Made by a program: the position numbers and the translations under genes. From assembly GCA_016200005.1 (NCBI GenBank), contig JACQFP010000013.1, positions 1 through 64,000 of the forward strand: DNA of 64,000 bases. The letters run 5' to 3'. The notes below the pieces were generated by a model, which did no database searches, had not been told where the DNA came from, and was given only the letters and a program-made list of their open reading frames with translations. Shown here in pieces: positions 40,474 to 54,307 of this stretch. Source of the DNA: Verrucomicrobiota bacterium. GTDB taxonomy: Bacteria; Verrucomicrobiota; Verrucomicrobiia; Limisphaerales; PALSA-1396. Numbering within the stretch: position 1 is the stretch's first letter; each line of letters opens with the position of its first letter.

Positions 40474-43356
40474 ATGAGGCTCAAAGCGCTCCAAGTCCTG
40501 CCGCAAGCGCGCTCAGTCGTGTTCGTCGTGGTGATTTTCTTCACGATCACATCGCTCCCCGCGGCGACCACTAAGCCTCGTTACTACGGACATGAAACAG
40601 TTGAGGACGCGCGCGGTGTCATCGCGCCGTGGTATCGCGGTCTGAACGGCCAGTGTGATTGGCGCGTGCGCATCGCGGCGGAAACGTTGAAGCGTTACCC
40701 GTGGACCACGACGAGCAGTGCGGTTGCGGCCTACCCGCACTATGTTTTCAATGGTGCATGGAAGATTGATACCAACGGTGTGATCACGCCCGCCCCGCTC
40801 AAGGACTGGGACAACGGCGACATCGGCCAGCGCGCCACCAGCGTGTTGAACGGCTTCGTGGACTACTACCGCTACACCGGCGACCCGGCGGCCATTGCGC
40901 ACCTGACCTACATGGCGGACTTCCTCGTGGACTGGTGCGTCACGCCGCTTGAGCATCCGTGGCCCGGCGTGTTCATCAGCGTGCCGGTCAAGGGCAAGCC
41001 GTATGGCCGTTGCGATCCGAACGGGATGATCCAGCTCGACCTCGTCGCCTGCACGGGCCAAGCCTTGCTGCGCGCCTACCAGGTCACCGGCAATCGGCGC
41101 TGGCTCGACACGGCGCAGCATTGGGGCGATCTGCTGGTGGCGCATTGCAACCTGAATCCGAACGCCGATCCCTGGCCGCGTTACGTGAATCCCGAAGCCT
41201 CACCATGGAAGGACAACAAACAAACCGGCGGCGTGACAATGATCCTTGGGTTTCTCGACGAGCTGAGGCGACTCGGCCCCACGGACAATGACTCGCACGT
41301 GGTCGCGGCGCGCGAGGCTGGCGAACGTTATCTCCGCGACAAACTGCTGCCGGCCTGGGCAGTGGATGACACCTGGGGCCGTTACTTCTGGGATTGGGAC
41401 AACCCTGTTCAGAATTGCCTGACTACACCGGATGCTGCGCGTTACCTGCTCGATCACCCGGCGCGGTTCCCGAACTGGCGGACGGATGCGCGCAACATTC
41501 TCTCCGTTTTTCTCAACCGCACCAGTGTCGCCCTGGATTCGAGTGGCGACGTTTACAGTGGTGCATGGGCTTATCCGGAATCCAGTGGCTGCTGCCGTCG
41601 ATCCCTTTGGTACGCGCCGCTGGATTTGGCGCCGGCTTTCGCGCAATACGCTGTTCAATCCAGCAGCGCGTGGGCGCGCGAACTGGCGCTCCGCCAGGTC
41701 GTGCTGCAAACCTACGACGGCCACGAGAACGGTCAGACCGAGGACAACATTGACGGCGGCGTCATCGTCAACGGCAGTTGGTTCAACATCGCCCATCCGA
41801 TGCCGCTGCGATTCCTGTTGGCGGCGATGGCCTGGTTGCCCGAGGAACTCGGCGCCAGCCGGGAGAACCACATCATGCGCTCGTCCGCCGTCGTGACGTC
41901 GGTGATTTACGGCGCGGGCCGGATTGAATACTTAACCTTCGACGCGCCGACGGACACAGTGGAAGTGTTGCGGCTAGCGTTTGTGCCCAAGGAAATCCGG
42001 GCTGACGATAAACCACTGCGCTCCCGCCGCGTTTTGAAGGCCAACGGTTACACTGTGAAACGTTTGCCGAATGGCGACGCGCTGGTGACCATTCGCCACG
42101 ATGCGGCCAAACGCATCGTCGTCACCGGCAAGGATCCTCAACGCGCGCTGGAAAATTCGGCGCTGGATTTCCAAGGCGCGTGGCGGGAGGAAGCGGACGC
42201 CCCTGCGTTTGACGCAACTGAGAGACACACAACTTCCGTCACCATGAACCGACCCACCCCCGACCCCTCCGAGGAGGGGAGCAGAACGACGGACGCGCGA
42301 CGGCAGTTCCCCTCCTGGGAGGGGTCAGGGGTGGGTTCATGGCCCCGACGCATGATTTCGGAATCGTCGGGATACTCCATGAACCTGGGAGCGCCGGCAT
42401 CCTGGCCGGCGCGTTGGAATTCGGGAAACTCGCCGGCACGGATGCCGGCGCTCCCAGGCCGGTGCCACGTGGCGGAGAGCGCGGGCGCAACGCTGACAGC
42501 GCAGTTCGAAGGCAATCAAGTGCGACTGATTGGCCGCGCTGATCCGCAAGGCGGGCTGGCAGATGTTTTTCTGGATGGTGAAAAGCAACTCGCCCCGATT
42601 GATTGCTGGAATCCATCGCCCCGGAGCCAGCAGGTGCTTTACTACCGGAACGGTCTGGCCGCCGGCGCGCACACACTCAAGATCGTGGCGCGTGGAGATA
42701 AAAATCCGTACGCCAGCGGCACGCGGGTTTATGTGGACGGGATCCAGTTTTCGAAGGCGACCGGCGCGCATCATTTTCCGAGCGGCAAGGGGCCGACGGA
42801 AACTCAGCGGATGATTTTCGGCTACACCGGCCGGATGGACTTGCGTGATACACGCGGGCACTTTTGGCGGCCGGCGACCGAGTTCGTCACCCGCCTGGCC
42901 TCCCTCAAGGACTCCGTCCGCGAATGTTGGTGGACTCACGCGACGGACGAACCGATTCGCGGCACCGCCGACCCGGAGTTGTATCGCTACGGCGTTCACG
43001 CGACGAATTTCTGGGTCAACGCGACAGTCGGGCCGGGGAAGTATTACGCTCGGCTGAAGTTCGCCGCGACGCGCGGCCAGGACTCGCGCACGAACTGCTT
43101 CGACATCAGTATCAATGGCCGGCGCGTCGTCGAGCGATTCGATGTGCGCGCCACGGCGGGCGGACCTGACCGCGCCGTGGATCTGGTCTTCAACGACCTC
43201 GCTCCACGCAACGGAATCATCGAAGTCCGCCTCACCGGCGCGGAGCGATTGGAAGGCGGCAAGACGGTGCGCGGTGAGGCGTTCTTGCAGGCCCTGGAAA
43301 TCGGCCCCGGCCACGGCGGTCGTGGCGCGAAACCGGCCTCAGTGCCGGCTCAATAG
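40474..43356 (+). CDS. Large secreted (alpha/alpha)6-type protein with carbohydrate-binding-like C-terminus
   Basis: 960 residues with a signal peptide (ARSVVFVVVIFFTITSLPAA). The first about 480 residues look like an (alpha/alpha)6 toroid: VLNGFVDYYRYTGDPAAIAH, GQALLRAYQVTGNRRWLDTA, SSGCCRRSLWYAPLDLAPAF. The C-terminal part has two beta-sandwich-like stretches, VRLIGRADPQGGLADVFLDG and CFDISINGRRVVERFDVRAT (malectin/CBM-like). It probably acts on plant or algal glycans with the neighbours. Residues about 590-665 are encoded by two inserted palindromic repeats that keep the frame. Confidence 0.75.
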   Translation: MRLKALQVLPQARSVVFVVVIFFTITSLPAATTKPRYYGHETVEDARGVIAPWYRGLNGQCDWRVRIAAETLKRYPWTTTSSAVAAYPHYVFNGAWKIDTNGVITPAPLKDWDNGDIGQRATSVLNGFVDYYRYTGDPAAIAHLTYMADFLVDWCVTPLEHPWPGVFISVPVKGKPYGRCDPNGMIQLDLVACTGQALLRAYQVTGNRRWLDTAQHWGDLLVAHCNLNPNADPWPRYVNPEASPWKDNKQTGGVTMILGFLDELRRLGPTDNDSHVVAAREAGERYLRDKLLPAWAVDDTWGRYFWDWDNPVQNCLTTPDAARYLLDHPARFPNWRTDARNILSVFLNRTSVALDSSGDVYSGAWAYPESSGCCRRSLWYAPLDLAPAFAQYAVQSSSAWARELALRQVVLQTYDGHENGQTEDNIDGGVIVNGSWFNIAHPMPLRFLLAAMAWLPEELGASRENHIMRSSAVVTSVIYGAGRIEYLTFDAPTDTVEVLRLAFVPKEIRADDKPLRSRRVLKANGYTVKRLPNGDALVTIRHDAAKRIVVTGKDPQRALENSALDFQGAWREEADAPAFDATERHTTSVTMNRPTPDPSEEGSRTTDARRQFPSWEGSGVGSWPRRMISESSGYSMNLGAPASWPARWNSGNSPARMPALPGRCHVAESAGATLTAQFEGNQVRLIGRADPQGGLADVFLDGEKQLAPIDCWNPSPRSQQVLYYRNGLAAGAHTLKIVARGDKNPYASGTRVYVDGIQFSKATGAHHFPSGKGPTETQRMIFGYTGRMDLRDTRGHFWRPATEFVTRLASLKDSVRECWWTHATDEPIRGTADPELYRYGVHATNFWVNATVGPGKYYARLKFAATRGQDSRTNCFDISINGRRVVERFDVRATAGGPDRAVDLVFNDLAPRNGIIEVRLTGAERLEGGKTVRGEAFLQALEIGPGHGGRGAKPASVPAQ
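42252..42337. repeat. Inverted-repeat element inside the 40474 gene
   Basis: acccacccccgacccctcc (42252-42270) faces ggaggggtcaggggtgggt (42318-42336) around a 47-nt core. It is a MITE-like palindromic repeat read through in frame. Confidence 0.85.
42384..42458. repeat. Second inverted-repeat element inside the 40474 gene
   Basis: cctgggagcgccggcatcc (42384-42402) and ggatgccggcgctcccagg (42440-42458) are perfect 19-bp inverted repeats around a 37-nt core that contains a smaller gccggc palindrome. It is read in frame. Confidence 0.95.
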
Positions 43357-52121: not shown

Positions 52122-53567
52122 ATGGGCTTGAAGTTTTTCAACACACTGTCGCGCTCAGTGCAGGAGTTTGTGCCGCTCGATCCGGCGGGCAAGCGCGTCG
52201 GCATGTATTGCTGCGGGCCGACGGTTTATGATTTCGCGCACATCGGCAATTGGCGCTCATTCGTGTTCGGCGATCTGGTGCGGCGCTTTCTGGAATTTAA
52301 GGGCTTCTCTGTCCAATACGTCATGAACATCACGGACGTGGAGGACAAAATCATCAAGCGCGTCCGTGAAACGAAAACAACGCTGCGGGAATTCACCAGT
52401 AAATACGAAGCGGCGTATTTTGAAGACTTGAAGACGCTGAACTGCTTAATGCCGCATCAGACTCCGCGCGCCACCGAACACATTCCCGAAATCATTTCGC
52501 TGATTGAAAAACTCATTGCGCGCGGCCTGGCCTATAAAGCGGCGGACGGCTCGGTTTATTTCAGCATCGAGAAATATCGCGGTTGCGGCTGCCAATATGG
52601 CCAGTTAGTGAAATTGAACTTCGATGAAATGCGCGCCGGCGACCGCGTCAAGAGCGACGAATACGCCAAGGAATCGGTGGCGGACTTCGCGCTGTGGAAA
52701 GCCCGCGCACCTGACGACGGCGACGTTTTCTGGCCGAGTCCGTGGGGCGAGGGCCGGCCCGGCTGGCACATTGAGTGCAGCGCCATGAGCATGAAATTCC
52801 TGGGGCCAAGTTTCGACCTGCATCTCGGCGGCGAAGACTTGAGGTTTCCGCATCACGAGGATGAAATTGCGCAGAGCGAAGGCGCGGCGTTGCAGCAGGA
52901 CGGACAGCGGTTCGTCAAATACTGGCTGCACGGCGCGCATCTGCTGGTCGAGGGCAAGAAGATGAGCAAGTCGCTCGGCAATTTCTTCACGCTGCGCGAT
53001 TTGCTGGCGAAAGGTTTTACCGGACGCGAGATTCGTTATCTGCTGCTCACCGCGCATTATCGGGAGACTTTCAATTTCACTTTGGACGGCTTGCAAGGAG
53101 GGCGGACGGCCCTGGCACGGATTGATGAATGCGTGGCCAAATTGCGCGAGCTGGTTGGAGTTCAAGCTTCAGCTCGTTCGGATGACACGCTAAAGCGTGA
53201 ACTCCAACAGACCGGCTTGGTCATGCGTTTCACAGACGCCCTTGACGAGGATTTGAATATCTCCGCGGCTTGGGCTGCGGTGTTCGATTGGGTGCGCGAA
53301 ACGAACAAACGCCTCGTGGAGAAATCGCTCCCACCTGCCGATGCTGCCGCCGCGCTCGCCGCTTGGGAGAAGGTGAATTCCGTCCTCGGCGTCGGTTCAG
53401 CCGCCGAATCCGAAGCGCCACGCGAAATCCTCGCCCTGCTGGAGGCGCGGCAGGCGGCACGCAAAGCCAAAGATTTCAAACGCGCCGATGCCATTCGCAA
53501 CGAGTTGAAGGCCAAAGGTTGGGTGATTGAAGACACGCCGAAAGGACCGAAGTTGAAAAAGTTGTGA
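52122..53567 (+). CDS. cysS: Cysteinyl-tRNA synthetase
   Basis: 481 residues from ATG 52122. It has the zinc and active-site start MYCCGPTVYDFAHIGN (class I HIGH-type motif HIGN at 40-43), GRPGWHIECSAMSMKFLG, LRFPHHEDEIAQSEGA and the KMSKS loop at about 279-283 (GKKMSKSLGN). The C-terminal DALR/anticodon region includes FTDALDEDLNISAAWAAVFD. It charges tRNA-Cys and should be essential. Residues about 345-363 (GVQASARSDDTLKREL) are encoded by a palindromic repeat inserted in frame in the linker before the DALR helix bundle. Confidence 0.95.
   Translation: MGLKFFNTLSRSVQEFVPLDPAGKRVGMYCCGPTVYDFAHIGNWRSFVFGDLVRRFLEFKGFSVQYVMNITDVEDKIIKRVRETKTTLREFTSKYEAAYFEDLKTLNCLMPHQTPRATEHIPEIISLIEKLIARGLAYKAADGSVYFSIEKYRGCGCQYGQLVKLNFDEMRAGDRVKSDEYAKESVADFALWKARAPDDGDVFWPSPWGEGRPGWHIECSAMSMKFLGPSFDLHLGGEDLRFPHHEDEIAQSEGAALQQDGQRFVKYWLHGAHLLVEGKKMSKSLGNFFTLRDLLAKGFTGREIRYLLLTAHYRETFNFTLDGLQGGRTALARIDECVAKLRELVGVQASARSDDTLKRELQQTGLVMRFTDALDEDLNISAAWAAVFDWVRETNKRLVEKSLPPADAAAALAAWEKVNSVLGVGSAAESEAPREILALLEARQAARKAKDFKRADAIRNELKAKGWVIEDTPKGPKLKKL
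53154..53208. repeat. Palindromic repeat inside cysS
   Basis: gttggagttca (53154-53164) and tgaactccaac (53198-53208) are an 11-bp inverted repeat. A sister copy lies just behind the gene (53584-53661). Confidence 0.9.
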
Positions 53568-53583
53568 CCACAGTCGAGACAAG

Positions 53584-53661
53584 CTGGAGTTCACGCTTTA
53601 GCGTGTCAGGTGTAAACACATTGCAGCGTAGGCTCAGGCAAGCTAAAGCTTGAACTCCAAC
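53584..53661. repeat. Sister palindromic repeat between cysS and tmk
   Basis: ctggagttcacgctttagcg at the left and aagctaaagcttgaactccaac at the right (53640-53661) match the ends of the cysS insertion, with a different core. It fills most of the cysS-tmk gap and ends 4 nt before the tmk start. Confidence 0.85.
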
Positions 53662-53665
53662 GAGA

Positions 53666-54307
53666 ATGAAAGGTTTGTTCATCACGTTCGAGGGCACGGA
53701 AGGCAGCGGCAAATCGACGCAGGCTGCCTTGCTGGCCGAACACCTTCGCGTGACAGGGCGCACGGTGCGACTCCTGCGCGAACCGGGCGGCACGCCCATT
53801 GGCGAGGAAATCCGCCACACGCTCAAGCACAGCCCGGACAACGCCGCCATGACGGCCGAGACAGAACTGCTGCTGATGAACGCCAGCCGCGCCCAACTCG
53901 TGCGCGAAGTCATCCGCCCCGCCCTCGCCAGGGGAGAAGCTGTCTTGTGCGACCGATTCTATGATTCCACCACGGCCTATCAAGGATACGGACGCGGACT
54001 GGATTTGAAGGCGGTCCAGGCCATGATTGATTTCGCTGTCGGCGAGACGCGACCGCACCTCACATTGCTGTTGCGTATTTCTGCCAAGGCGAGCGAAGCG
54101 CGTCGCCGCTCGCGTCAATCGACGCTTCCGTTTCTGCGCGACCGGATGGAAGAGGCCGACCACCAGTTTTTCGAGCGTGTGGCCAAGGGTTATCAACAGA
54201 TTGCCGCCGCCGAGCCGGAACGCGTGCGCGTCATTGACGCAGGGGACGATGTGCAGACTGTCAGCGCGGCGATTTGGAAAGAAGTGTCCACGCTGCTTGG
54301 ACGCTGA
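53666..54307 (+). CDS. tmk: Thymidylate kinase
   Basis: 213 residues, normal for the family. It makes dTDP from dTMP. The P-loop is GTEGSGKST (residues 10-18), the LREPGGTPIGEEIR substrate segment follows, then DRFYDSTTAYQGYGRGL (the DR(Y/F) motif) and a basic lid region (ARRRSRQ). The leader is a palindromic repeat, so expression signals are unusual. Confidence 0.95.
   Translation: MKGLFITFEGTEGSGKSTQAALLAEHLRVTGRTVRLLREPGGTPIGEEIRHTLKHSPDNAAMTAETELLLMNASRAQLVREVIRPALARGEAVLCDRFYDSTTAYQGYGRGLDLKAVQAMIDFAVGETRPHLTLLLRISAKASEARRRSRQSTLPFLRDRMEEADHQFFERVAKGYQQIAAAEPERVRVIDAGDDVQTVSAAIWKEVSTLLGR

Follow-up and report, generated by a model that had tools for sequence, protein, structure and literature searches.

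GGAG-headed palindromic repeats lie in frame in cysS and other housekeeping genes of a Verrucomicrobiota genome

In-frame palindromic repeats are known from several bacterial groups, and the tolerance of such insertions by their host genes, which a sequence-only reading had inferred from the locus described here, is already published (PMC3733652, PMC2229807). REPs of the GTAG superfamily are described as lying in frame in many genes, DNA-repair genes being frequent hosts and dimers encoding 20 to 30 residues, and the intragenic GTAG repeats are reported to be most numerous in Opitutus terrae, a verrucomicrobium; the same description also includes a single instance, recB in two Xanthomonas, in which different REPs occupy nearly the same position (PMC3733652). 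The Rickettsia palindromic elements (RPE) are an earlier case, one with an active guanylate kinase (PMC2229807, PMC10969869). REPINs are REP doublets arranged as inverted repeats that form hairpins, dispersed and lineage-specific, and those described in P. fluorescens are extragenic and adjoin RAYT genes (PMC3116915). Our search of the later literature found nothing relevant.

The DNA analyzed here, referred to as the window, is a 64,000-nucleotide stretch of a draft Verrucomicrobiota assembly (87 contigs, 6.54 Mb, 96% complete, estimated contamination 2%), a placement with which CysS kinship agrees. The sequence-only reading had noted an inverted repeat within the cysteinyl-tRNA synthetase gene, and the repeat lies exactly where it was placed, inside the open frame (Table 1), and is far above chance expectation. 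Its arms (53154-53173 and 53189-53208) are 20 nt each, 90% complementary and spaced by 15 nt. The repeating unit proved to be 23 nt long rather than the 11 bp first supposed, and the element consists of two inverted copies of this unit, in which GTTGGAGTTCA precedes a short hairpin with the loop TTYA; together they give a strong fold. The open reading frame runs through all 18 1/3 codons of the element, with conserved protein to either side. Also borne out was a further copy in the gap before tmk, which is a second pair of the same family. In the sister species, the cysS-tmk gap holds a different palindrome, of GCGGCGGTCTGTGACCGTCGC type, at the position of this second pair (L032 2949-3008).

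Table 1. Features of the cysS region, in window coordinates
Feature	Position	Strand	Remarks
cysS, cysteinyl-tRNA synthetase, 481 aa	52122..53567	+	Pfam tRNA-synt_1e, DALR_2, CysS_C; ATG at 52122; single copy found in genome
55-bp inverted pair of REP-type units (REPIN-like), inside cysS	53154..53208	.	CysS residues 345-363 of 481
First 23-nt unit of the cysS pair	53154..53176	+	AAGC stem type; 1 base off consensus near 3' end
Second 23-nt unit of the cysS pair	53186..53208	-	ACGC stem type
Second pair, same family as the cysS pair, 79 bp	53583..53661	.	occupies the cysS-tmk gap
tmk, thymidylate kinase	53666..54307	+	Pfam Thymidylate_kin

Pfam and an AlphaFold model (mean pLDDT 91.9, 41 sequences) agree with the earlier placement of the segment in the linker immediately before the DALR domain. 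In the model, the element lies between a long helix (residues 321-345) and the DALR helices and is predicted to form a turn plus helix with moderate confidence (10-residue block means of 79, 73 and 89 from residue 341). Outside the element, comparison of cysS with the sister species gave a dN of 0.106 and a dS of 0.93, which indicates purifying selection there as an average over the whole branch, not over the time since insertion; MutL, XseA and MnmE gave a similar picture. As the genome search turned up a single cysS and the gene is under purifying selection, the insertion appears to be tolerated, and we infer that CysS retains activity with the element. The cysS copy differs from its subtypes by 1 base in 46 unit bases. 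This divergence is far below dS, so the copy is probably younger than the split from the sister species, although REP copies may also be homogenised.

Chance does not account for the family: the window has four unit matches where shuffles predict 0.01, and the genome has 204 (up to 2 mismatches) where the reversed pattern has none. Copy number is lineage-specific, with 163 exact matches in the window genome and 5 in a same-genus genome (82% complete); across the order, 37 of the 196 genomes had unit matches, and the control gave a single match. From 174 places located with three overlapping patterns, the first of which alone accounts for the 204 matches, we analyzed 94 regions, and these contain 113 elements that have one or more good units. 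Inverted pairs are their main form (70 tail-to-tail and 21 head-to-head pairs), alongside 21 single units and one double pair, and pairs span 52-91 bp. Each REP-type unit has the head GTTGGAG and a hairpin whose complementary stem varies by compensatory changes while head and loop stay constant: of 205 units, 160 have GC and 41 CG at stem pair 12-19, and at pair 11-20, 127 have AT, 51 CG and 20 GC. Head-to-head pairs at the centres of L007, L009, L010, L018, L020, L022, L025 and L028 sit within a longer element of about 130 bp, with terminal inverted repeats like GGGCTATGCACTTGATTCCCC, that resembles a separate MITE built around the units.

The tetranucleotide beside the hairpin is GGAG, one base from GTAG, and some REP families are described with degenerate second and third positions of this motif (PMC3733652). 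The family resembles the intragenic GTAG-superfamily REPs of that description in being short, often dimeric palindromes in frame in conserved genes, DNA-repair genes among them; it differs in its unit and in its head, which carries neither GTAG nor CGTC (PMC3733652). A tetranucleotide near a short perfect hairpin, with a 5-bp stem and a TTTA loop, is likewise described for the Marinomonas REP recognised by a group 3 TnpAREP; that REP carries GTAG in place of GGAG (PMC8266576). Like the RPE, the repeats are palindromic, mobile and in frame in many unrelated conserved proteins with no evident loss of function; by published description, however, RPE measure 105-146 bp, form families of their own and belong to an intracellular alphaproteobacterium, and the pairs here are shorter and built from a 23-nt REP unit (PMC2229807, PMC10969869). 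Within the literature searched, the GGAG-headed family is new; in-frame palindromic insertion of this kind was already known and is here seen many times.

We consider it likely that the CysS segment is a REPIN-like mobile pair inserted in frame, of a family that also lies in frame in 22 or more further recognisable genes. The segment would be a non-autonomous mobile palindromic repeat, an inverted REP-type pair, that entered a functional and apparently single-copy CysS in the linker joining its catalytic part to the DALR helical bundle, and that replaced most of a short ancestral linker. Selection would have retained only copies in open frame at loops, linkers and other tolerant positions. The unit may move as single-stranded hairpins recognised in trans by a RAYT-type (TnpAREP) tyrosine transposase, the most likely mover. 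The genome has four Y1_Tnp genes, three of them RAYT-like with matches to NF047646 below the cut-off and the fourth with a partial match; no unit lay beside any of these loci within roughly 1.5 kb around them. Because no unit flanks these genes, and three of them match NF047646 only below the cut-off, we term the family REP-like rather than a proven REP/RAYT pair. The P. fluorescens REPINs are described as extragenic and adjoining RAYT genes (PMC3116915), whereas a fifth of the elements examined here lie within genes, and we found no cognate RAYT.

A mover other than a RAYT, either a transposase that acts on longer head-to-head elements with terminal inverted repeats or recombination and gene conversion, is unlikely but deserves some weight. 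Head-to-head elements with long terminal repeats do exist (21 of the 113 elements are head-to-head), and no unit adjoins the Y1 genes. Against such a mover, the genome has RAYT-like genes, and the hairpin, head and inverted-pair anatomy agree with what is described for REPs and REPINs (PMC3116915, PMC8266576).

The earlier proposal to look in other genes led well beyond cysS. Open frames of at least 200 aa enclose 36 of the 113 elements, and 23 of the 113 are in frame in Pfam-supported proteins, with Pfam matches around the element or on both sides. The 23 were chosen by reading Pfam tables, the element lying within one domain match in some and between two in others. Their hosts are CysS, FabD (acyltransferase), MutL, MutS, MnmE, XseA, RecJ, an Mfd-like helicase, SelA, SelB, a BioF-like aminotransferase, BioA, an RlmD/TrmA-like methyltransferase, two sigma factors, a phytoene/squalene synthase, an M19 dipeptidase, MmgE/PrpD, DUF58, UPF0261, RhaT, a BcrAD/SIS protein and a PSD4/PSCyt3 protein, where the names BioF, RlmD and Mfd are interpretations of Pfam matches. 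We dropped the other 13 of the 36, those with Pfam on one side or neither (L118, L121, L124 first, L140, L144, L150, L162, L166, L167, L169, L175 and L200) and the second element of L124 (TrmD), which lies ahead of the likely true start. Four of the 23 are single units (sigma factor, MutS, BioF-like aminotransferase, UPF0261), some with a decayed partner, and SelB carries a divergent family variant. Intragenic pairs are shorter than other pairs (mean 60 versus 67 bp; Mann-Whitney p = 0.0097; 19 versus 51). Twice, in-frame elements are present in both of two adjacent genes: in selA and selB, and in the bioF-like gene and bioA (L193 1136-4428, L194 1517-4487). In L145, L173 and L203, where the frame would meet TGA in the second arm, the arm reads TGG (a GAGTCC head variant); this is consistent with selection against the stop, an argument that is partly circular, open frames having been chosen.

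These hosts form a dense natural set, in which one small mobile repeat lies in frame in housekeeping proteins and orthologs without it serve for comparison. With this set one can test directly how frequently protein loops tolerate selfish DNA and are then remodelled by it; the set also cautions annotators that odd linkers in these genomes can be repeat-derived.

The breadth of hosts also bears on whether the hairpin is instead kept for regulation, through transcription attenuation or mRNA processing of the cysS-tmk transcript, with an incidental coding role. The strong fold in cysS, the second pair in the cysS-tmk gap and the different palindrome in the same gap of the sister species would all suit such a role. 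The same family, however, occurs in many unrelated genes, and the cysS linker copy is missing from all relatives compared, making a regulatory role improbable in our view. It is more improbable still that the repeat was stitched into cysS during assembly or that the gene is a non-working pseudogene. Repeats can mislead assembly, and this is a draft of 87 contigs with 2% estimated contamination; yet the frame is open with conserved protein on either side, the gene order matches that of the sister species, the gene is under purifying selection, and many other genes show the same pattern.

Comparison with relatives revised the claim that the element adds about 18 residues to CysS. Although the element supplies 18 codons, the linker is 45 residues long against 35 in 17 of 33 order-level rows over the same alignment columns (range 35-64; two of the rows appear identical) and 43 in the sister species, so that it exceeds the mode by about 10 and the sister by 2. 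In 81 orthologs compared over similar columns, linker length ranged from 37 to 59. The segment is not conserved in CysS orthologs, the element being absent in all relatives compared. Among these relatives we found no empty cysS site matching the filled one, and a clean insertion is therefore not demonstrated at cysS. As the gain over mode and sister is only small, we favor replacement rather than an addition of 18 residues: the element appears to have displaced most of a linker that was short and variable, altering sequence more than length. The sister linker showed no trace of the element; as a candidate decayed copy it was rejected, its score being reached by 603 and 801 of 1000 shuffles under two scoring schemes. 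The varying linker lengths might suggest a native, fast-evolving linker that is palindromic by coincidence, but this is refuted by the genome-wide DNA family, with more than 200 copies against none reversed and four in the window against 0.01 expected.

Other hosts offer clearer length changes. MutL has 49 residues at the site where 24 of 29 other rows, the sister among them, have 31, a clear gain of 18. XseA has 52; the sister has 32, 21 of 29 rows fall at 31-35, and 8 carry longer loops of their own. MnmE has 47, compared with 10-24 in 27 of 29 rows and 44 in the sister. At the FabD element, a few residues ahead of the GLSLGE motif, PDB 3ptw has a 17-residue gap, and BioA shows a 13-residue gap in PDB 6zhk; for the phytoene/squalene synthase, the PDB search gave an alignment only beyond the element. 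The broader proposal, that coding DNA can take up these repeats with function preserved and gain new linker or loop sequence from them, thus draws its strength from the 23 of 113 elements in frame and from the 18 residues gained by MutL, and is weaker at cysS itself.

Several of the same sites hold other palindromes in relatives. The XseA loop has three different palindromes (in the window genome, G038 and G024), and the MutL loop (window genome and G003) and MnmE loop (window genome and sister) two each; those of the relatives are strong and unrelated to the window-genome element. The CysS linker of G003 contains a single GTAG-type hairpin beginning GTAGGGACGCG. The sister MnmE palindrome resembles a second repeat family, GGAGCGCGGACA, with 44 matches in the window genome (control 2) and 9 in the sister (control 1). 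Particular loops of housekeeping proteins in this Verrucomicrobiota order may, we tentatively suggest, serve more than once as landing sites, for unrelated REP families in different lineages, making repeats a recurring supplier of loop and linker sequence, although we lean against this as a general rule. Relative to the single recB case described for GTAG-superfamily REPs, there are more cases here with ortholog alignments and site re-use in more genes (PMC3733652). Across orthologs, strong hairpins were not generally enriched at the four sites: of 116 non-own genes, 11 had their strongest fold at the site, against about 10.4 expected from the site fractions (5, 4, 4 and 2 of 30 per site, the own gene being one in each). 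Site re-use is on that account a lead and not a result. Among the most extreme folds (z <= -5), three of four non-own windows were at the site, as were two of five non-own repeats in an ungapped inverted-repeat scan, which missed the own MutL and the sister MnmE palindromes.

The window also contains an unrelated palindromic pair, of GGAGCGCCGGCATCC type, at 42384-42458. It lies inside a 960-aa ORF (40474-43356) that gave no match in a PDB search and has weak GH127 and malectin matches, and it encodes, in frame, a Pro- and Ala-rich stretch.
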